Below, one piece after another: positions 1,812 to 11,614 of a stretch of DNA of 11,614 nt. The first letter of the stretch is position 1. Each line of letters starts with the position of its first letter. Origin of the DNA: Porticoccaceae bacterium UBA1117. Lineage in GTDB: Bacteria > Pseudomonadota > Gammaproteobacteria > Pseudomonadales > Porticoccaceae. The position numbers were made by a program, and so were the translations under genes. The stretch covers positions 1 to 11,614 of the forward strand of contig DCBC01000112.1 in assembly GCA_002313335.1 (NCBI GenBank). The letters run 5' to 3'. Below the pieces are notes generated by a model that worked only from the letters and a program-made list of their open reading frames with translations, was not told the origin of the DNA and ran no database searches.

Positions 1812-3257
1812 ATGACCAGTGAAGTGTATAGAAACTATATTAATGGCGAATGGGTTGATGGTTACGAGGTAATTAGTAACATTAATCCTTCAGACACTAG
1901 TGACATAGTCGGCCGTTATGCTAAGGCCAATGCAGGACATTGCCTAGATGCGATTAAAGCGGCGAATACAGCATTTGATAGCTGGTCACAAAGCGGTCTT
2001 GAGCAACGAAAAAATATTCTAGATTTTATCGGGGGAGAACTCATTGCTCGTAAAGAAGAAATAGGCGCTGTCTTGGCGCGTGAAGAGGGTAAAACTCTGG
2101 CAGAGGGAGTGGGTGAGGTAGGTCGCTCAGGTCAGTTTTTCCAATACTACGGTGCCGAAGCGTTACGATTAATGGGCGAAAATACCGCGTCTGTCCGGCC
2201 AGGTGTTGATGTAGAAGTTCACCGTGAACCTCTTGGTGTCGTAGGTATTGTAACGCCCTGGAATTTCCCAATGGCGGTTGCCGCGTGGAAAGTTGCACCT
2301 GCGCTATGTTACGGCAATGCAGTGGTTTTGAAGCCGGCAGAGTTAGTGCCCGGCAGCGCTTGGTTATTGGCTGAAATAATTAGTCGTAGCGGCCTTCCTG
2401 CAGGCGTATTTAACCTCGTTATGGGATCTGGACGTGAAGTAGGAGAAACACTTTGTACCTCAGCAGACATACAGGCGGTAACCTTCACAGGATCCGTAGC
2501 GGTGGGTCGTCATATTGCGCGTAATGCCATTGATAACATGGCTCGTGTGCAGCTTGAAATGGGTAGTAAGAATGCGTTGGTAGTTTTAAATGATGCCGAT
2601 ATGGATACGGCGATTCAATGTGCTATCTCTGGAGCGTACTTTGGCACCGGACAAAAATGTACTGCATCGTCTCGACTTATTGTTGAGTCAGGTATCCATG
2701 ATGAATTCGTCGCTAAAATGACAGATGCCATGAATAAATTGGTGGTGGGTAATTCAATGACTCCCGGTGTTCACATTGGTGCTGTAGTGGATGAGCGGCA
2801 ACTCAAGCAAAATCTAAAGTATATGGAGATTGCTAAGCAAGAGGGTGCGCAATTAGTTCAAGGGGGTGAGCGTTTATCCCTTGATACTGAGGGCTACTTT
2901 ATGTCACCGGCATTGTTCATAAACACGACTAATCAAATGCAGATTAATCGTGAAGAAGTCTTTGGTCCCATAGCATGTGTCATTAAAGTAGAGAGTTATG
3001 ACGAAGCGCTAGCGGCGTCAAATGATTCTGACTTTGGATTGACCTCCGGTATTATCACTACATCTTTAAAGTATGCGGGCCATTTTAAACGCCACTCTAA
3101 GTCTGGATGTGTGATGGTGAATCTGCCTACTGCAGGGACTGACTACCACGTACCTTTTGGTGGCCGTAAAGCATCAAGCTACGGCCCAAGAGAGCAGGGA
3201 CAATACGCCCGGGATTTTTACACGATCATAAAGACTAATTACAGCAAACCTTACTAA
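1812..3257 (+). CDS. NAD(P)+-dependent aldehyde dehydrogenase, probably 2-oxoglutarate semialdehyde dehydrogenase type
   Basis: A complete 481-aa member of the aldehyde dehydrogenase superfamily, normal length. Catalytic features: Asn151 in TPWNFP, Lys174 in VVLKPAE, the cofactor loop FTGSVAVG at 225-232, general base Glu249 in LEMGSKN, and the nucleophile Cys283 in GQKCTASSR. All residues for hydrolytic oxidation of an aldehyde to a carboxylate are present, unlike the CoA-acylating paralogue at 7723-9219. The EMGSKN motif and the C-terminal VPFGGRKASSYGPREQG segment (near residues 440-465) resemble the Bacillus YcbD/GucD group of 2-oxoglutarate semialdehyde (2,5-dioxopentanoate) dehydrogenases, which feed sugar-acid and hydroxyproline breakdown into the TCA cycle. 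It opens a + strand operon with the M19 gene 32 bases downstream, behind a good ribosome binding site. The superfamily is certain; the substrate is inferred from motif resemblance and the DpkA-like neighbour. Confidence 0.85.
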   Translation: MTSEVYRNYINGEWVDGYEVISNINPSDTSDIVGRYAKANAGHCLDAIKAANTAFDSWSQSGLEQRKNILDFIGGELIARKEEIGAVLAREEGKTLAEGVGEVGRSGQFFQYYGAEALRLMGENTASVRPGVDVEVHREPLGVVGIVTPWNFPMAVAAWKVAPALCYGNAVVLKPAELVPGSAWLLAEIISRSGLPAGVFNLVMGSGREVGETLCTSADIQAVTFTGSVAVGRHIARNAIDNMARVQLEMGSKNALVVLNDADMDTAIQCAISGAYFGTGQKCTASSRLIVESGIHDEFVAKMTDAMNKLVVGNSMTPGVHIGAVVDERQLKQNLKYMEIAKQEGAQLVQGGERLSLDTEGYFMSPALFINTTNQMQINREEVFGPIACVIKVESYDEALAASNDSDFGLTSGIITTSLKYAGHFKRHSKSGCVMVNLPTAGTDYHVPFGGRKASSYGPREQGQYARDFYTIIKTNYSKPY

Positions 3258-3289: not shown

Positions 3290-4288
3290 ATGCGTAACGA
3301 TATGCTCATGATTGACGGACTTCAGTATGTTAACTGGAACCGCGAACTGTTCGAAGAAGCCCAAAAAAGTGGTGTTCATACGATTCATGTAACAATTGCC
3401 TATTGGGAAAATATCCGCGAGACCTTAGAAAATATTGGCACATGGAACAGACATTTTATTAATCATGCCGATCTAATTATGCCGGTTCGGCAAGCTGCCG
3501 ATATCCTGGAAGCGAAACGAGTAGGGAAGGTCGGAATTATATTTGGCTTTCAAAACTGCTCTCCGATTGAAGATGATGTAAAGATGGTTGAGATACTACA
3601 TCAGTTGGGTGTGCGAATTATGCAACTGACCTATAACAATCAGAGTTTTCTGGCGACCGGTTGTTATGAGGAGCAAGACGGTGGTATTACTCGATTTGGC
3701 AGACAGGTAATAAAAGAGATGAATCGGGTTGGTATGGTCATTGATATGTCTCATAGTGCCGAGAAATCGACCTTAGAAGCGATTGAGATATCAGAACGTC
3801 CCATTGCCATTACGCATGCCAATCCTACTTTTTTTCATCAAGCATTGCGCAATAAGTCAGAAACAGTCATTCGGGCTATTGGTGAATCTGAGGGGATGCT
3901 TGGTTTCAGTATGTACCCATTTCATTTAAAAAATGGCTCTGACTGTACCTTGGAAGAATTTTGTCAAATGATGGCTCAAACCGCTGAGATGATTGGTATT
4001 GATCGTATTGGGATTGGCTCAGACCTGTGTTTGAATTGGGATTATACCGTGTTGGAGTGGATGCGAAGTGGCCGCTGGACGACCGGTGTTGATCATGGCG
4101 AAGGCTCTGCAGAAAAACCATCGTGGCCAAAACAACCTTCATGGTTCACAGGCTCAAAGGATTTATATACCATTGCCAGAGGGCTGTCCAATCAAGGTTT
4201 TAGCGATGATGATATCGCAAAGGTGATGGGTGAAAACTGGTTGTCGTTTTTTGAAAAATCATTCCCCGGAAATTTGATAGACTCCTGA
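3290..4288 (+). CDS. M19 (membrane/renal dipeptidase) family amidohydrolase with atypical metal site
   Basis: A 332-aa TIM-barrel amidohydrolase-fold protein of the M19 dipeptidase family; no signal peptide or membrane segment is visible, so it is probably cytoplasmic. Present are MVIDMSHS (His155), AITHANP (His176) and GIGSDL (Asp245), matching the second metal-binding half and the catalytic Asp of renal dipeptidase. The N-terminal HxD metal pair is replaced by IDGLQYVNW (9-16), and the bridging Glu of the usual GxEG motif by Gln in GFQNC (86-90). A classical two-zinc site therefore looks absent. From memory, homologues near glycine-betaine and amino-acid catabolic genes in Pseudomonas (PA5396-like) share this pattern and the tail (GRWTTGVDHGEGSA, GENWLSFF), so it is probably a subfamily trait. 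GGGAG at 3279-3283 lies 6 bases before the ATG. It is likely cotranscribed with the aldehyde dehydrogenase; the substrate is unknown. Confidence 0.85.
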   Translation: MRNDMLMIDGLQYVNWNRELFEEAQKSGVHTIHVTIAYWENIRETLENIGTWNRHFINHADLIMPVRQAADILEAKRVGKVGIIFGFQNCSPIEDDVKMVEILHQLGVRIMQLTYNNQSFLATGCYEEQDGGITRFGRQVIKEMNRVGMVIDMSHSAEKSTLEAIEISERPIAITHANPTFFHQALRNKSETVIRAIGESEGMLGFSMYPFHLKNGSDCTLEEFCQMMAQTAEMIGIDRIGIGSDLCLNWDYTVLEWMRSGRWTTGVDHGEGSAEKPSWPKQPSWFTGSKDLYTIARGLSNQGFSDDDIAKVMGENWLSFFEKSFPGNLIDS

Positions 4289-4410: not shown

Positions 4411-6156
4411 ATGCATAACTCATTTCAACAGGCTGGTAACCATAGCAATGCAAAAGCATTGCCGATGCGTCCTGCCAATAAAGTTATGCAGTTGAGTCGA
4501 CTGGGTAGTTTGCATCAATCTCGACTCAGTTTTATGCGTACATTAGTACGCCGTATGGTGGCAGAAAACTGGCAAATCAGTAGCCCAGTGTTTGATCTGG
4601 ACGAGCATGGGTATGGTACTGTGGTCTATCAGATTGAGGCTAAGTACGGCACCTTCAGTTATGTCTTGTTCTCTCATTATTTGGATCCTGAACGTCGCAA
4701 TGATCGAGTTATTGCTGATCAGTGGGATCTAACGATGGCTCTTTGTGAGGGGACAGTCGATACAAAGCAACTAGATTTTTTACGTAACAATGTACCTAAG
4801 CAGGAAGCTGGCCGAGTAGATTCAAGAGTGCTGGTTTTATCCCGTGCCAATCGTAGTGCACGACTCTTTGAGTATGTGGTTAACGAGTTGGCCCAAGGGT
4901 CTCAGCCAGACATAGATATGATCGCTGATGTCGGCTATCTCTATCGGACTACCGCTGCTTATGGCAGTGGTAAGTTGGGTATGGCAGATTGGGAAAAGGT
5001 CTGGACAAAACATCGAGATTTCGCTCGCCCCTTTGCCGCTGAGATGTTTACCTGTTACATGCTTCGTCACTTCAGTACCCAGCAAGCCGACTATTTAGCG
5101 TCCCAGCGTTCACCAACACAGGCAGTGGCACTGCATGAGGATATTAAGCGCTACATAGGTATTGGCAATTCTACGGGTTTGGGTATGGCGCCATTTTTGA
5201 TTAATCACCCGCTATTGATTAATCAATGGATTGAAATGCGGGAAACCGCGTTGGCCACCGTCGTTGCTGCGAGTGAATCAGGCATTGATCAAGAGATGCT
5301 CTCGCGGTTTGACATATCTGTTCAGCGTGTGATTCAACATCTAAGTGAAATTATCACCGCTGATGAGCGACAAAGTAAGGCGAATATTCAGGTAGGCGAA
5401 GAATTACAGTTACTGCATGCATGGTTACATGAGCAGGGCGAAGTGTTGGTAAAAAATCACTACGTGTGGGCATCTCTCACGCATTATGCCGAACAAAATT
5501 GGCTTACAGAGACGCAGGAAGTTATCAATACACTTTTGATTGAACTTTATCCTGAGCTGGTTGATGGCTTTGAAGAACATATGTGGGTGGAGGAATCTTA
5601 TCAAGTAACCCCTGAAATGTCGGTTGCTGAGATGTTAGAGGTGATCGAACAGAAGTATGATTGGGCGTTAGCTATCGATTTTAGCAAGTATGAGTCTATG
5701 GGTGCATTTTGGTACCGCTCTCAAGAAAAAATGGAGCCGCGTCTCGGTCAGACTAATATTGATATGGGGATGGAAAAAGAGATGCCTCTGGGGATAGGTC
5801 GTCGGGTACGCGAATGTTACGATCAGATGTATGGCTACAACCAGACTTGTCCTAATCAAGATGTGGCTCATTTTGTAGTCCAGAATCCTACCTTTAGTGG
5901 GATCGTCGCTCGGATTCAAACAATGGCTCAGAGTCAGTATGGCGATATTCGTGAAAATCTTGTGCATTCAGATGTACTTCCCATTCACTTACTACGTTGC
6001 AAATTATCATTTTTTGGGGTCAGTAAATTTGATCCACGCTCGCGCCTATGGGTGCGTAATACGATGTTTCAGGGCGCTCCTCTGATTAGTGATTTTGGCA
6101 AGGTCTTTGCTGATGACTGGCAGTTTCCCGTCAAACCCACTGCGATCTCTGAGTAA
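4411..6156 (+). CDS. Conserved-looking protein of unknown function, 581 aa
   Basis: I do not recognise a named family. The protein appears soluble: no signal peptide, no membrane helices, no obvious nucleotide-binding loop, and no zinc-finger or helix-turn-helix motif. It has a polar N-terminal tail of about 25 residues, then a mixed alpha/beta region (about 30-115; GYGTVVYQIEAKYGTFSYVL, SHYLDPERRNDRVIADQWD). A segment with VLSRANRSARLFEYVV (142-157) follows, then a Gly-rich GNSTGLGMAPF (252-262), a largely helical middle (about 265-400), and a Trp/Arg-rich FWYRSQEKMEPRLG (433-446) ahead of LGIGRRVREC. The motif-like clusters of Ser, Asn, Arg, Glu and Trp look like an active site or ligand pocket rather than a scaffold. 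I have an uncertain memory of similar unnamed proteins beside DUF3726 genes in other proteobacteria. The start is uncertain: no strong ribosome binding site, and internal Met19 and Met26 are possible. The DUF3726-like gene follows by 5 bases, implying joint translation and function. Confidence 0.8.
   Translation: MHNSFQQAGNHSNAKALPMRPANKVMQLSRLGSLHQSRLSFMRTLVRRMVAENWQISSPVFDLDEHGYGTVVYQIEAKYGTFSYVLFSHYLDPERRNDRVIADQWDLTMALCEGTVDTKQLDFLRNNVPKQEAGRVDSRVLVLSRANRSARLFEYVVNELAQGSQPDIDMIADVGYLYRTTAAYGSGKLGMADWEKVWTKHRDFARPFAAEMFTCYMLRHFSTQQADYLASQRSPTQAVALHEDIKRYIGIGNSTGLGMAPFLINHPLLINQWIEMRETALATVVAASESGIDQEMLSRFDISVQRVIQHLSEIITADERQSKANIQVGEELQLLHAWLHEQGEVLVKNHYVWASLTHYAEQNWLTETQEVINTLLIELYPELVDGFEEHMWVEESYQVTPEMSVAEMLEVIEQKYDWALAIDFSKYESMGAFWYRSQEKMEPRLGQTNIDMGMEKEMPLGIGRRVRECYDQMYGYNQTCPNQDVAHFVVQNPTFSGIVARIQTMAQSQYGDIRENLVHSDVLPIHLLRCKLSFFGVSKFDPRSRLWVRNTMFQGAPLISDFGKVFADDWQFPVKPTAISE
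4445..4462 (+). repeat. Perfect 7-bp inverted repeat inside the start of the 581-aa gene
   Basis: GCAATGC (4445-4451), loop AAAA, GCATTGC (4456-4462) form a perfect hairpin 34 bases after the proposed ATG. In mRNA it would sit at the edge of the initiating-ribosome footprint. It could modulate translation, be an operator-like dyad, or be a coding coincidence in the poorly conserved N-terminal tail. Confidence 0.45.
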
Positions 6157-6161
6157 GCAGT

Positions 6162-6893
6162 ATGAAAGTCTCTAAGAATGAATTACTGGCTTCTTTAAAG
6201 AAGGCCTTTGAGGCTCTGGGATTTCAGCCCGGCGATTACTACGACGCTGCGGATATGGTGGTTTGGTTAGAGACACATGGTTTTTATGGCTTTGACCGAT
6301 TGCTAGCAGTCTTAACTTATCTGAATACCACTGCGCCTGTTCACGCAGATCTTGTGCAAGAAGATACCCATAACTTTGTACTTGATGGGAAAGGTACCTC
6401 TGTTTTATTGTGCGGTAGCGAAGCTGTTGATCTAATCCGATCTAAGGTGATGAAAGGTTCGTGTGCCGGACTAGAGTTGATCAATTGCTATAACCGAACA
6501 TTCATCGTGCAAAGACTGATTAAAGCGGCGCAGCGCAATCTGGCATTCATTGCATATTGGCGGCAGCTTGATTATTGCGTCAAAGTATCTGTGAAACCAG
6601 GTGCATATCTTCCTGAGTATCAGACTTTTACTATGCTGCAGGTAGTTGATTTACAATCGCTACGAATTTTTTGTGGAAAAAATTTAGATGCTATTGAAGA
6701 GCAATATGTGACGGAGCTAGAGTTTGGAACTCTTGTTGATACCTTTTCTGAGACTGAAATGGCAAATAGTTACAGAAATTCAGTGGAAGATGGCATAGAA
6801 ATAGATGAGACTCTTTGGAAAACGCTAGATACGCTAGTGGCTAGAGTACTGGTTGAATCTACTGATGACTCGCGTGCAGGTGCAGGTGATTAG
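6162..6893 (+). CDS. DUF3726-like protein of unknown function
   Basis: A 243-aa protein whose N-terminus (VSKNELLASLKKAF, then DAADMVVWLETHGFYG at about 28-43) matches my recollection of DUF3726 proteins, in which an N-terminal 'SLNE...KKAARGAG' helix is followed by 'WL..HG..G'. The rest is predicted mixed alpha/beta up to about residue 195 with an acidic C-terminal tail (ESTDDSRAGAGD). No catalytic motif, signal peptide or membrane span is visible. The ATG lies only 5 bases after the stop of the 581-aa gene with no strong Shine-Dalgarno of its own, so translation is probably coupled and the two products likely act together. The biochemical role is unknown; the genomic setting suggests an accessory or enzymatic role in amino-acid-related catabolism. 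The family assignment is from memory of the N-terminal signature. Confidence 0.75.
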   Translation: MKVSKNELLASLKKAFEALGFQPGDYYDAADMVVWLETHGFYGFDRLLAVLTYLNTTAPVHADLVQEDTHNFVLDGKGTSVLLCGSEAVDLIRSKVMKGSCAGLELINCYNRTFIVQRLIKAAQRNLAFIAYWRQLDYCVKVSVKPGAYLPEYQTFTMLQVVDLQSLRIFCGKNLDAIEEQYVTELEFGTLVDTFSETEMANSYRNSVEDGIEIDETLWKTLDTLVARVLVESTDDSRAGAGD

Positions 6894-6917: not shown

Positions 6918-7709
6918 CTAGTCAGAGTTTTTACTATCCTCGTCAGCTCCATCAACAAGACAACTTAACTCTTTGGCTGCTTTGGCAAGTACAGGCACAT
7001 AATGCAGTAGTTCATGAAGACTTTTACGTATTACTGGTGCATGGGTAAAGAGACATGCAAATAATCTGCCTTTAGCATCATATACCGGCACTGCACAGGC
7101 GACCATCCCATCAACGAACTCCTCATTGTCGGTCCCAATACCGCTTTTTTTAATCCCTTGTAACTCTTCTTCTAGGATATTCGCATCGGTAATAGTATTA
7201 CGCGTGTACTGTTTGAGCGGTAGTTTGTTGATCAGACGTAGCCGTCTATCTTTAGTGATGCTACTGAGATACAACTTACCACTGGCCGTGCACCAACTCG
7301 GAGTGTGGCTGCCTACCTGTAAATGGATCTGCAAGGGCCAGTCAGTCTGTACTCGATCGTAGTAGATCATTTCTGTACCGTTGGGAATGGCGATACCACA
7401 GGTCTCGCCAATCTCATCAGTTAACTTTTGTAATATCGCTTGCCTCAGAGCTTTGAAGCGGCTGCTATAAAGAATACCCAGAGCCATGCCGTGTAGTCGA
7501 TCACCTGGCACTATCAGGCCGCGCATCGATGTTTGCAAATAACCGTCGCCTTCCAACTGGCTAATCAACCGGTGAACACTTGGTTTAGGAATATCTAACT
7601 GGTGGCAAAGATCGGCTGGCGACAGCGGTCGCTCAGCCTTGGACACAGCTTCAATAATTGCCATTGCTCTAGCAATTGCTGATCCTCTCTCTTTGCCATT
7701 GGTGGTCAT
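6918..7709 (-). CDS. IclR-family transcriptional regulator
   Basis: A complete IclR-type regulator of 263 aa from the ATG at 7709. An N-terminal winged helix-turn-helix (about residues 12-70: SAIARAMAIIEAV, LSPADLCHQLDIPKPSVHRLISQLE) is followed by a GAF-like effector domain (about 80-250) with the typical SGKLYLS, GTDNEEFVDGMVACAVPV and FACLFTHAP elements. A GTG at 7721 could add four residues, but GGAAAA at 7714-7719 is a good ribosome binding site for the ATG and overlaps the GTG, so I prefer 7709. The gene starts 13 bases after the mmsA stop and is the last gene of the alcohol dehydrogenase-mmsA-iclR unit. A self-regulating feedback on that catabolic unit is the simplest reading. The effector is not readable from sequence; a 3-hydroxypropionate or semialdehyde-related acid is plausible. 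Confidence 0.92.
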   Translation of the reverse strand: MTTNGKERGSAIARAMAIIEAVSKAERPLSPADLCHQLDIPKPSVHRLISQLEGDGYLQTSMRGLIVPGDRLHGMALGILYSSRFKALRQAILQKLTDEIGETCGIAIPNGTEMIYYDRVQTDWPLQIHLQVGSHTPSWCTASGKLYLSSITKDRRLRLINKLPLKQYTRNTITDANILEEELQGIKKSGIGTDNEEFVDGMVACAVPVYDAKGRLFACLFTHAPVIRKSLHELLHYVPVLAKAAKELSCLVDGADEDSKNSD

Positions 7710-7713
7710 TGGA

Positions 7714-7719
7714 TTTTCC
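7714..7719 (-). promoter_or_regulatory. Ribosome binding site deciding the iclR start
   Basis: GGAAAA on the minus strand, 4 bases before the ATG at 7709 (7 bases from the GGA core). It overlaps the alternative GTG codon at 7719-7721, which argues for the ATG. Confidence 0.5.
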
Positions 7720-7722
7720 ACA

Positions 7723-9219
7723 TTAGCTCATGGTAGGCATGGAGAATTGAGCACCTTCGCGAACACCTGCTGATGGCCAGCGCTGAGTGATTGTTTTACG
7801 CTTAGTATAGAAGCGTACACCATCTGGGCCATAAGCATGTAAATCACCAAATAAAGAACGTTTCCAACCACCAAAGCTATGATATGCAACAGGAACGGGT
7901 AATGGAATGTTAATACCAACCATGCCTACTTGAATATGATCTGAGAAGTAGCGTGCAGCTTCACCGTCGCGTGTAAATATGCAGGTTCCGTTACCATACT
8001 CATGCGCATCAATTAGATCCATGGCTTGCTGCATAGTATCTACCCGGACAACTTGCAGTACTGGGCCAAAAATTTCAGCATTATAGCTGTCCATCTGTGG
8101 TGTGACTCTATCGATCAGTGTGCCCCCAACATAGAAACCATCCTCATGGCCAACAACGGTTGGGTTACGGCCATCAACGACAATCTCAGCGCCGTCTTGC
8201 TCTGCACTGTCTATGTAACCAAATACCTTTTGCTGGTGCTGGCGAGTAATCACAGGACCAAAATCGTTATCGGCATCGTGGCAGGGTCCAATTTTAAGAC
8301 CTTTCATCGCTGCACTCATTTTGCTGACCAATTGATCGGCTGCGGCATCACCCACGGCGACAGCGACTGATAGGGCCATGCAGCGTTCGCCAGAAGAACC
8401 AAAGGCGGCGCCCAATAATTGGGCAACGGCATTGTCCATATCAGCATCAGGCATGATGATAGCGTGATTTTTTGCTCCACCTAGTGCTTGGCAGCGTTTG
8501 CCGTGTGCGCTGGCTGTACTGTAGATATATTCAGCAATAGGTGTGGAACCCACAAAGCTCACAGCTTTGACACGCTCATCTGTCAAAAGTGTATCTACCG
8601 CCTCTTTATCACCGTTAATTACGCTCATAACACCGTCAGGCAAGCCAGCTTCTTTAAGAAGCTCTGCAATAAATAATGTTGAACTTGGATCACGCTCCGA
8701 AGGCTTGAGAATAAAGCAGTTTCCACAGACAATAGCCATGGGATACATCCACAGTGGCACCATCGCTGGGAAATTAAACGGGGTAATTCCAGCAACTACA
8801 CCCAAAGGCTGGAATTCACTCCAGGAGTCAATATTGGGGGCTACATTCTTACTGTGTTCACCTTTAAGTAGTTCTGGGGCACAACACGCATATTCCACAT
8901 TTTCGATGCCCCGTTGCAATTCACCGGCGGCATCATGGGAAATCTTTCCGTGTTCCTCACCAATCAATGCACAGATCTTGTCCGCATTTTGCTCGAGTAA
9001 ATCTTTAAACTTAAACATCACTCGTGCGCGCTTAATAGCCGGCGTATTGCGCCAAGCCGGATAGGCTGCCTCAGCCACAGCAATTGCTTGCTCAACAGTA
9101 GCTTTAGATGCCAGTGCAACTTGCTTGCTGACCTCGCCAGTAGATGGGTTATAAACGTCTTGAGTTCGGCCGCCATCAGGGCTAGTCTGGCCATTAATTA
9201 GGTGTCCTACAGTGATCAT
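7723..9219 (-). CDS. mmsA: CoA-acylating (methyl)malonate-semialdehyde dehydrogenase
   Basis: A 498-aa aldehyde dehydrogenase of the MmsA/IolA group, full length. It oxidises malonate or methylmalonate semialdehyde with NAD+ and CoA, releasing CO2 and acetyl-CoA or propionyl-CoA in the cytoplasm. Visible are GITPFNFPAM (Asn149), SFVGSTPIAE at 221-230, and the nucleophile Cys280 in SSGERCMAL. The usual general-base Glu is absent: the region reads ALGGAKNH (Ala245), as in CoA-acylating members where CoA rather than water resolves the thioester. The group-typical LLKGEHS (near 117-123) and the MPTM C-terminus are also present. A TTG at 9240 would add seven residues, but AAGGA at 9228-9232 lies 8 bases before the ATG at 9219, so I chose that. 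The iron alcohol dehydrogenase gene is 54 bases upstream and iclR directly downstream. As in DddB-DddC pairs, the likely job is malonate semialdehyde to acetyl-CoA; valine or inositol breakdown are alternatives. Confidence 0.93.
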   Translation of the reverse strand: MITVGHLINGQTSPDGGRTQDVYNPSTGEVSKQVALASKATVEQAIAVAEAAYPAWRNTPAIKRARVMFKFKDLLEQNADKICALIGEEHGKISHDAAGELQRGIENVEYACCAPELLKGEHSKNVAPNIDSWSEFQPLGVVAGITPFNFPAMVPLWMYPMAIVCGNCFILKPSERDPSSTLFIAELLKEAGLPDGVMSVINGDKEAVDTLLTDERVKAVSFVGSTPIAEYIYSTASAHGKRCQALGGAKNHAIIMPDADMDNAVAQLLGAAFGSSGERCMALSVAVAVGDAAADQLVSKMSAAMKGLKIGPCHDADNDFGPVITRQHQQKVFGYIDSAEQDGAEIVVDGRNPTVVGHEDGFYVGGTLIDRVTPQMDSYNAEIFGPVLQVVRVDTMQQAMDLIDAHEYGNGTCIFTRDGEAARYFSDHIQVGMVGINIPLPVPVAYHSFGGWKRSLFGDLHAYGPDGVRFYTKRKTITQRWPSAGVREGAQFSMPTMS

Positions 9220-9227
9220 GATGTCTT

Positions 9228-9232
9228 TCCTT
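9228..9232 (-). promoter_or_regulatory. Ribosome binding site deciding the mmsA start
   Basis: AAGGA on the minus strand, 8 bases before the ATG at 9219. It lies inside the possible TTG-initiated extension (9240), which supports the shorter protein. Confidence 0.6.
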
Positions 9233-9273
9233 TTGGTCAAGAATAATTAAATTTTAATGATAAAGATGTTGGG

Positions 9274-10431
9274 TTACCAAAGTTTTTTGTAAAGCTGAAT
9301 AATGTCATCAGCATCGGGGACTCTTGGATTATTTGCCGGAGAACCTGATGCCATTGCTTGATCTGCCATGGTTTGAAGATTACCAAAGAAATGCTCTCGC
9401 TCTATACCAAAGTCCTCTGGTGAGGGAACTTGCAGCTCTTCGTTAAGCGCACGTAGCTCATTCATTAACTTAGTCGTCGCTATGTCAGTGCTGTCGTTCT
9501 GATCGGAAACCCCAATCGCACGCGCACAGTCGGCATAGCGCTCTGCTGCTGCGGGGATTGAGTACTCAGTTACCGTAGGTAATAGCATTGCGTTAGAAAG
9601 ACCATGAGGGACATGATAGGACGCACCTATGGGTCTGCTCATACCATGCACTAGTGCCACAGACGCATTAGAAAATGCGGCACCGGCTAAGGTCGACCCA
9701 AGCATCATTTTTTCGCGTGCCTGTTTATCGCTCCCATCGTGATATACCTTCCTAAGATTTGGCCCAAGTAATTTCATTGCCGCAATCGCTTGGGTGTCCG
9801 TATAGACACTAGCCTTTTTACTAACATAGGCCTCAATAGCATGAGTCAGGGCATCAATTCCTGTGTCTGCTGTTGTGCGCGCTGGCACACTCAGTGAAAG
9901 CTCATAGTCTACCAGCGCCACAATAGGCATAAAACCAATACCCATGCACATCATCTTTTCATCAGTAGTTTCGTCCGTGATTACGGTCACTTTGGTTACT
10001 TCAGAGCCGGTTCCTGCGGTAGTGGGGATGGCAATAATCGGTAAACCTGGTTCATCAACAATACGTGGGAACTTGTAATCTCGCATCTGACCACCATATT
10101 TCCCCAATACGGCAATAGCCTTGGCACTATCTATTGGGCTACCACCACCAAGAGCAATAATACAATCATAATTGCCACCACGAACCTTCTCGACGCCCGC
10201 TTGAATTGAGCTAACTGTTGGCTCAGGCACAGTATCATCAAAGATGTCTACTCTTATGGCCTCATCAGTCATACATTCAATAATACGTTCGATATAGCCA
10301 AGCTGAACCATTATTTTATCAGTGACAATTAGCGGTCGATACAGACCCATACTCTTCAGTATGTTACCGACTTCTTTGCTGGCTCCTGCACCGATTTGTA
10401 AAATACGTGGCAGAACTATTTTCGATGACAT
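9274..10431 (-). CDS. Iron-containing (group III) alcohol dehydrogenase, DddB-like
   Basis: A complete 385-aa Fe-ADH family protein, usual length. The N-terminal NAD(P)-binding domain carries ALGGGSPIDSAKA (GGGS at 95-98) and the IPTTAGTGSEVT loop (135-146). The C-terminal helical domain carries the metal ligands Asp193 and His197 in GIDALTHAIEAY, His262 in VHGMSRPIG and His276 in YHVPHGL. All four iron ligands are present, so it should be active. GAGG at 10437-10440, 5 bases before the ATG, is a strong ribosome binding site. Being first in a transcript with mmsA suggests it makes MmsA's substrate: 3-hydroxypropionate (or 3-hydroxyisobutyrate) to the corresponding semialdehyde. This is the DddB role in DMSP catabolism, where dddB and dddC (an mmsA homologue) are adjacent. 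The family is certain. The substrate is inferred; other short-chain alcohols or 4-hydroxybutyrate are possible. Confidence 0.9.
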   Translation of the reverse strand: MSSKIVLPRILQIGAGASKEVGNILKSMGLYRPLIVTDKIMVQLGYIERIIECMTDEAIRVDIFDDTVPEPTVSSIQAGVEKVRGGNYDCIIALGGGSPIDSAKAIAVLGKYGGQMRDYKFPRIVDEPGLPIIAIPTTAGTGSEVTKVTVITDETTDEKMMCMGIGFMPIVALVDYELSLSVPARTTADTGIDALTHAIEAYVSKKASVYTDTQAIAAMKLLGPNLRKVYHDGSDKQAREKMMLGSTLAGAAFSNASVALVHGMSRPIGASYHVPHGLSNAMLLPTVTEYSIPAAAERYADCARAIGVSDQNDSTDIATTKLMNELRALNEELQVPSPEDFGIEREHFFGNLQTMADQAMASGSPANNPRVPDADDIIQLYKKLW

Positions 10432-10590: not shown

Positions 10591-10935
10591 TCAGATGGAT
10601 TCAAACGCGCATTTGACACAGCAGCTGTATGTCGGGTCAATACGCAATCTGCCGATGACGATGAGCTCATCACATTCTAAGCAACGACCAAAGTCGCCGG
10701 ATTCAATTCGAGCCAATGCTAAGGGGATTCTAGCCAACTGCAATTTACGCCGGCGGGATGCTTCTTGAGCCATTTCTGCACCTTGCATAGCGTCCATGCG
10801 AGAGAGTCGTCCAACTGCAGACTGATCTAGTACCACAGGTTTTATAGCATCTTTTGAGATGAACTCGAGTTCTTCAAGTTGTGCTTTGAGATCTAAAAGA
10901 GCTTTATGGAATGAGTCTATCGTTGAGCTATCCAT
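10591..10935 (-). CDS. TraR/DksA-type C4 zinc-finger protein
   Basis: A small 114-aa protein of the TraR/DksA superfamily. Residues 1-78 form the expected helical coiled-coil region, including AVGRLSRMDAMQ, a segment typical of short DksA-like proteins. The C-terminus carries a four-Cys zinc site: Cys85 and Cys88 (CLEC), Cys106 and Cys109 (CVKC). It is shorter than DksA (about 150 aa) and longer than TraR (about 73 aa). The acidic D-x-x-D-x-A tip of DksA is reduced to a single Asp48-Ala, so ppGpp-type polymerase control cannot be assumed. Family members act in the RNA polymerase secondary channel; for this short group the function is not established to my knowledge. The ATG is 7 bases after the stop of the upstream LysR gene with no clear Shine-Dalgarno, so translation is probably coupled to it. 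Confidence 0.88.
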   Translation of the reverse strand: MDSSTIDSFHKALLDLKAQLEELEFISKDAIKPVVLDQSAVGRLSRMDAMQGAEMAQEASRRRKLQLARIPLALARIESGDFGRCLECDELIVIGRLRIDPTYSCCVKCAFESI

Positions 10936-10942
10936 GGGCGTG

Positions 10943-11614
10943 TTAAATGGCCGGCATTTCAGTGATAGGGAAGGCTTGCTGGTCTAGCCAAGGAGCAATG
11001 GCAACCATTTGGCCAACGACATCATCTGCATAAATAGAGCGACAGATATCAGCAATTTTAGCGGGCCAATCGCCGAGTTCGTTATTGCGGCACACCAGCG
11101 TCAGATAGCGCGCATTGGCGCCTTTGGTGAGTGATATTACCTGAGTCCCTTCGAGTAATTCTGGATATCGAACCAAGCATAGCGCTGATGTAAATGCCCA
11201 GCCTTGTCCTGATTGCACAAACCGCAGAAGTGTTTGTGTACTGTCTAACTCATAGCTAGCGTTGAGTTCTATATTCAATCGACGAGCAATAAGATCCGTT
11301 AGGCTACCGAGTCTAGACTGTCGGTTATAGTGCACAAACGGAACATTCTCGGCCAACCATGCCGATGTTACATTGCCGCCACTAGCGTACTGGTTAGGTA
11401 CGATCATCACAATTGGGTCTCTTAGCAGGGCAAGTCGCTGCAGCTCCGGATGTTCATCTATCGGGTCACTGGTAATTAAAAGATCAAGGTCACGGGCTAG
11501 TAGAGCTTGCGTTAACGGGGATACTAATCCAGTTCGTAATGCTAACTGGCTGGTAAACGGCTTTACTTTTTGAATGAACTGAAGGCCGGCAATATCACAA
11601 AAGGAATCAATCAT
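10943..11614 (-). CDS. LysR-type regulator, effector-binding domain only (N-terminus outside window)
   Basis: About 223 residues of a LysR-family regulator running off the right edge on the minus strand. The visible part is the two-lobed effector-binding domain: it begins at an IDSF strand where family members have about 90 preceding residues, then shows ALLARDLDLLITSDP, the PIVMIVP hinge and VQSGQGWAFTSALCLV. The helix-turn-helix half must lie beyond base 11614, so the Met at 11614 is internal. The C-terminus is complete, stop at 10943-10945. It precedes the zinc-finger gene by 7 bases and lies upstream of the alcohol dehydrogenase-mmsA unit on the same strand. That position recalls dddR (also LysR type) beside dddB-dddC, but no specific sequence evidence supports that identity here. 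Confidence 0.88.
   Translation of the reverse strand: MIDSFCDIAGLQFIQKVKPFTSQLALRTGLVSPLTQALLARDLDLLITSDPIDEHPELQRLALLRDPIVMIVPNQYASGGNVTSAWLAENVPFVHYNRQSRLGSLTDLIARRLNIELNASYELDSTQTLLRFVQSGQGWAFTSALCLVRYPELLEGTQVISLTKGANARYLTLVCRNNELGDWPAKIADICRSIYADDVVGQMVAIAPWLDQQAFPITEMPAI

Follow-up and report, generated by a model that had tools for sequence, protein, structure and literature searches.

In an 11,614-nucleotide stretch of Porticoccaceae bacterium UBA1117 (positions 1 to 11,614 of contig DCBC01000112.1, hereafter the window), an initial annotation had singled out two adjacent genes, one for a 581-residue protein (U581) and one for a DUF3726-like protein. We put at even chances the proposal that this pair opens the ring of homarine (N-methylpicolinate), and that an aldehyde dehydrogenase (ALDH), an M19-family amidohydrolase homologue (M19) and an Ldh_2-family oxidoreductase from the same operon complete its conversion to N-methylglutamate. 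The evidence comes from the constancy of the pair, from its neighbours in other genomes and from an exclusion between Ldh_2 and RidA genes around it.

U581 and DUF3726 as a unit

The initial annotation had placed the two genes 5 bases apart behind genes for ALDH and M19, and open reading frame (ORF) coordinates and Pfam agree with this layout: both upstream genes lie on the same strand, and 5 bases separate the U581 stop from the DUF3726 start. Of 71 distinct U581 genes in an initial survey, 69 had a partner ORF directly behind them (at least 150 residues, starting from 28 bases before to 15 after the U581 stop), one was fused to its partner, and for one the script found no such ORF. With ORFs of at least 140 residues and a larger set, a partner followed 159 of 164 U581 genes (the script chose the wrong frame in two of the 159); two more were fused (L100 and L192), one was cut by a contig end and two had no partner found. 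The commonest arrangement was a 4-base overlap (64 loci). The DUF3726 family, PF12525, was found in 27 of 398 proteobacterial genomes, all among the 29 that carry U581 (the window's own genome counted), and by coordinates each of its 29 places adjoins a U581 gene. Thus, the unlinked genes that the initial annotation had named as evidence against a common function were not found in these genomes. A Mesorhizobium protein is itself a U581-DUF3726 fusion, and 63 of the 120 relatives listed for it are fused and at least 680 residues long. These fusions are the strongest sign that both proteins work as one enzyme. A joint model of one fused homologue was also confident (predicted template modelling score, pTM, 0.91). 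Taken with the constant adjacency and the L192 fusion, this strongly supports the two-component enzyme suggested initially, and we infer one heteromeric enzyme with an arginine-rich active site in U581. Since M19 was present in 130 of the 138 loci that extend 6 kb or more to each side of U581 (neighbours being counted within 8 kb), the core of the system is the trio U581-DUF3726-M19.

U581 matched no Pfam family at E≤1 and no NCBIfam family at E≤0.1, in agreement with the earlier reading, and 24 diverse relatives gave no more than scattered chance matches in Pfam. A characterised fold, which had been named as a second finding that would count against the proposal, did not come up either: the structure was predicted with confidence (predicted local distance difference test, pLDDT, 88.6), and searches of solved structures with the model found no resembling fold. 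The three motifs first quoted as conserved-looking do hold invariant residues in an alignment of 24 diverse homologues (mean column identity 50%), the invariant positions including R145, N147, S149 and R151; G252, N253, L257 and G258; and W434, Y435, S437, E442, P443, R444 and G446. The family comprises at least 7943 proteins, as 7943 of 8000 scored database candidates matched. It is present in 115 of 248 genomes (114 of 247 genera) of the family of one surveyed genome (G115), a count that includes one genome (G501) matched weakly over 52 residues, and in 12 of the 274 genomes searched from the window's class, among them the window's own and one other already within the set of 398. Relatives on plasmids, in 168 records, include ones from Phaeobacter, Ruegeria, Sulfitobacter, Sinorhizobium, Aminobacter, Vibrio, Caballeronia and Pseudomonas.

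The partner is a DUF3726 protein, as first proposed (41.7 bits, Pfam cut-off 22.1), whereas its score against Ldh_2 (PF02615), 18.5 bits, lies below the cut-off of 38.8. In the predicted model of the fused homologue, the DUF3726 half folds like a shortened Ldh_2 protein, so that fold and weak profile similarity are shared with the type 2 malate-lactate dehydrogenases (YiaK, AllD, DpkA). These differ in that some 150 residues of the solved Ldh_2 proteins have no counterpart in the DUF3726 half, and in a Ser-His-Gly motif, presumably catalytic, that is invariant in seven neighbouring true Ldh_2 rows. Across 26 aligned DUF3726 rows, which are variable (mean column identity 28%), the motif is not conserved, the window's protein and some others having a nearby His-Gly. 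A simple pattern for a C-terminal SR..GAG tail matched all 63 fusions and 148 of the 159 partner proteins that are encoded separately. We infer that DUF3726 is a degenerate Ldh_2 fold, its nucleotide-binding part seemingly lost, serving as a structural or lid subunit.

The operon and its probable link to homarine

The operon and its regulator are arranged in the window as follows.

1-693, + strand: Ldh_2 family oxidoreductase (Pfam), 5' end missing; proposed imine reductase
713-1693, - strand: LysR-type regulator, divergent from the ALDH gene
1812-3257, + strand: ALDH; nearest models 2,5-dioxovalerate / alpha-ketoglutarate semialdehyde, with scores below their cut-offs
3290-4288, + strand: M19-family amidohydrolase homologue (Pfam) of a specialised subfamily, with Gln in place of the Glu of a solved dipeptidase
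4411-6156, + strand: U581 (581 residues), ORF outside Pfam and NCBIfam families; proposed ring-opening catalytic subunit
6162-6893, + strand: DUF3726 protein (243 residues), PF12525; proposed partner subunit, shortened Ldh_2-like, with the conserved C-terminal SR..GAG tail

The Ldh_2 gene is incomplete because the window begins at base 1 of its contig. This gene order is kept in nearly all of 34 related public loci with enough contig, mostly labelled Porticoccaceae, SAR92 or HTCC2207; the exceptions are L028 and L029, in which Ldh_2 was not seen, and L031, in which ALDH was not seen. Although M19 clearly belongs to its Pfam family (249 bits to PF01244, cut-off 26), it departs from the renal dipeptidases at one position. 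The best M19 match at all 154 aligned loci has Gln88, His155, His176 and Asp245, and Gln88 aligns to a Glu of the displayed solved dipeptidase 5lx0, a residue which we take to bridge the two metals in M19 dipeptidases. The closest solved structure by sequence, 2i5g, described as an "amidohydrolase", shares the Gln. Judged by its sequence, the operon M19 is a distinct subfamily.

Clusters in named genomes point to the substrate. Ruegeria sp. TM1040 has, in order, sarcosine-oxidase-like genes, an AraC-type regulator, LysR, ALDH, M19, a BCCT transporter, U581, DUF3726 and Ldh_2, and Phaeobacter inhibens 2.10 has the same order. Similar clusters in Roseateles and Shinella include a glycine-betaine ATP-binding cassette (ABC) transporter and purU, and that of Roseateles also holds folD. 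These betaine transporters near U581 suggest a zwitterionic N-methylated substrate. PMC13390433 describes homarine as a ubiquitous marine metabolite, states that N-methylglutamate dehydrogenase (Mgd) participates in its catabolism, cites a description of the catabolic pathway published in 2026 in Nature Microbiology, and places mgdABCD of Ruegeria pomeroyi beside tmaR, an AraC-type regulator gene. In their arrangement, the AraC regulator and sarcosine-oxidase-like genes of TM1040 look like that mgdABCD-tmaR locus. The window's own genome carries soxB-, soxD- and soxA-like genes, all scoring under curated cut-offs; the soxA-like gene is truncated at a contig end. Genes of the soxA family (at least 40% identity) adjoin nine of the 138 clusters, all of the Ldh_2 type, by models that do not separate mgd from sarcosine oxidase. 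Together, LysR, ALDH, M19, Ldh_2, the betaine transporters and the N-methylglutamate/sarcosine-dehydrogenase-like genes are consistent with homarine catabolism.

The 2026 work, by Ferrer-Gonzalez et al., reportedly describes an operon homABCDER with N-methylglutamate as product; one regulator (LysR) and five structural genes (ALDH, M19, U581, DUF3726 and Ldh_2), as in the window, fit that name. On this basis and that of the gene content, the window operon is probably that homarine operon and so already known at the operon level, where the "undescribed system" of the initial annotation is probably wrong. The amino- or imino-acid-derived substrate first suggested came near, in that an imino acid is a proposed intermediate, but the likely substrate is a pyridinium betaine. 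The catalytic identity, fold and cofactor of U581 appear to be new ground, so far as these searches reach.

The route that we propose follows the logic of trigonelline degradation in Acinetobacter baylyi (TgnA/TgnB, TgnC, TgnE), in which ring opening to an N-methylformamido aldehyde is followed by oxidation by an ALDH and by hydrolysis. The genes and their families are observed, and each chemical step is argued from that analogy. The pair would cleave the C5-C6 bond of the pyridinium ring to give 2-(N-methylformamido)-5-oxopent-2-enoate, ALDH would oxidise the aldehyde of this product, M19 would act as an amide hydrolase that takes off the N-formyl group to leave an enamine/imine, and Ldh_2 would reduce the latter to N-methylglutamate, the presumed substrate of Mgd. 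In other genomes, RidA would instead hydrolyse the enamine/imine to 2-oxoglutarate and methylamine. Conversion of homarine to N-methylglutamate requires the loss of one carbon and, because ALDH, M19 and Ldh_2 fit one step each, ring opening is left for U581-DUF3726. The analogy does not extend to the ring-opening enzyme: TgnA is a luciferase-type flavin monooxygenase, whereas no Bac_luciferase domain was found by Pfam at E≤1 in U581 or 23 relatives.

Ldh_2 and RidA genes at U581 loci

RidA (Rid family) proteins hydrolyse enamines and imines. Across the 138 loci, Ldh_2 was present in 65, RidA in 27, both in none and neither in 46 (Fisher p 2e-9), a mutual exclusion that is new in this analysis and that would be expected of two enzymes sharing a single enamine/imine intermediate as substrate. 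Both frequencies are far above the chance expectation per stretch, estimated from 15 genomes within a single family (RidA, 2.3%; Ldh_2, 0.7%). At seven of the 27 RidA loci, RidA starts about 750-830 bp past U581, right behind the partner gene, which is a frequent position of Ldh_2 elsewhere. One genome (G398) carries two loci, one per type; at the one with Ldh_2, the U581 match spans a stop codon and M19 was not found. Genes resembling mgd adjoin 9 of 65 Ldh_2-type against 0 of 27 RidA-type loci (p 0.054; p 0.0008 against all other loci). In a FastTree tree of U581, computed with a long-branch warning, the starred branches force at least nine changes of the RidA label, and the swap therefore seems recurrent.

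Alternatives, surroundings and significance

Several observations weigh against the proposed pathway. No reductase was seen linked throughout the annotated clusters, which is awkward for an oxygenase, and no cofactor or metal site is shown in U581, which has one invariant His in the 24 homologues. The role of M19 as a deformylase is a guess, because its key position differs from the solved dipeptidase, and sarcosine oxidase is another possible identity of the mgd-like genes. The 46 loci with neither Ldh_2 nor RidA do not fit readily, and the exclusion of the two, while significant by raw count, is not so after correction for relatedness: independent pairs were never contrary (none the same way), but the median sign-test p was 0.125 (range 0.03-0.5), so that we regard the pattern as suggestive. 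Furthermore, in a large clade in the family of G115 the linked genes found were M19, U581 and the partner only, in housekeeping surroundings; at three loci inspected there (L209, L214, L218), ycjX-like (DUF463) genes lie near the trio and ALDH and Ldh_2 were not found near it. Finally, tblastn disclosed a gene for a Rieske ring-hydroxylating oxygenase, a rival ring attacker, at four of the 138 loci. Such genes occur near U581 clusters in, for example, Pseudomonas sp. MPC6 and P. inhibens 2.10, and the substrate of the oxygenase could be this betaine or a different one. The four loci are L099, L110, L083 and L146, the gene being annotated beside a further aldehyde dehydrogenase in the first two.

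We consider it unlikely that the pair of a homarine operon opens the ring by adding water (pseudobase hydrolysis) and not oxygen, yielding 2-(methylamino)muconate semialdehyde for oxidation by ALDH and a later loss of carbon. That no reductase was seen linked throughout, and that neither U581 nor 23 relatives matched a family of flavin, haem or metal enzymes, would suit such a reaction, but this chemistry offers no obvious carbon-loss step to N-methylglutamate and would leave the amidohydrolase with no clear role. It is similarly doubtful that the trio is a later general module, cleaving for instance an N-acyl or imine intermediate, and that ring opening falls to the product of a gene outside the trio, for example the Rieske oxygenase. 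The trio alone near ycjX-like genes speaks for this, as do the Rieske, ALDH and flavin adenine dinucleotide (FAD)- or reductase-type genes near some clusters and a Sinorhizobium/Aminobacter branch (28-30% identity) in which IclR, U581, partner, M19 and ABC transporter genes stand without the ALDH and Ldh_2 order (L103 9944-13390 on Sinorhizobium pSymB; L104 9956-13364 on Aminobacter pAA02), and in which the trio likely acts on a different substrate. However, the one tblastn search found no Rieske gene within 8 kb at 134 of the 138 loci, and no other recurring oxygenase was noticed in the annotated clusters, whose neighbour genes were not scanned systematically. We give a low probability, too, to another betaine, e.g. 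trigonelline, proline betaine or carnitine, as substrate of the window operon. The transporter families suit any betaine and trimethylamine-methyltransferase-like genes occur at five of the 138 loci; nevertheless, Ldh_2 and the mgd-like genes point to N-methylglutamate as product, and Mgd is reported in homarine catabolism (PMC13390433). Finally, DUF3726 varies far more than U581, as might befit a maturation or chaperone factor, but the frequent fusions and the confident joint model make it quite improbable that it is such a factor and not a subunit.

Downstream of the operon, the - strand at 6918-10431 encodes an IclR regulator, a CoA-acylating methylmalonate-semialdehyde-type dehydrogenase (TIGR01722, 674.5 bits, above cut-off) and an iron-type alcohol dehydrogenase. 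This block is probably a separate catabolic unit, and most of the 34 related loci keep it next to the operon of U581. The spacing between DUF3726 and IclR is 24 bp in the window versus about 960 bp in L005, L006, L007, L008 and L009, where the gap may hold an additional gene. Also on the - strand are a 114-residue protein with a weak DksA/TraR zinc-finger match (10591-10935; 23.9 bits, cut-off 24.9) and a LysR-type substrate-binding domain that continues past the window end (10943-11614).

Returning to ring opening by U581-DUF3726, we tentatively suggest, while thinking it somewhat less than probable, a new enzyme class in which an arginine-rich subunit of unseen fold and a worn-down dehydrogenase open an N-methylpyridinium ring, the product feeding interchangeable Ldh_2 and RidA branches and the U581-DUF3726-M19 core being reused for other compounds in soil bacteria. 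If the pair does open the ring, it would be a widespread enzyme, given the presence of U581 in nearly half (115 of 248) of the genomes of one family, and the Ldh_2/RidA swap would predict from sequence whether a bacterium retains the nitrogen in an amino acid or releases it as methylamine.
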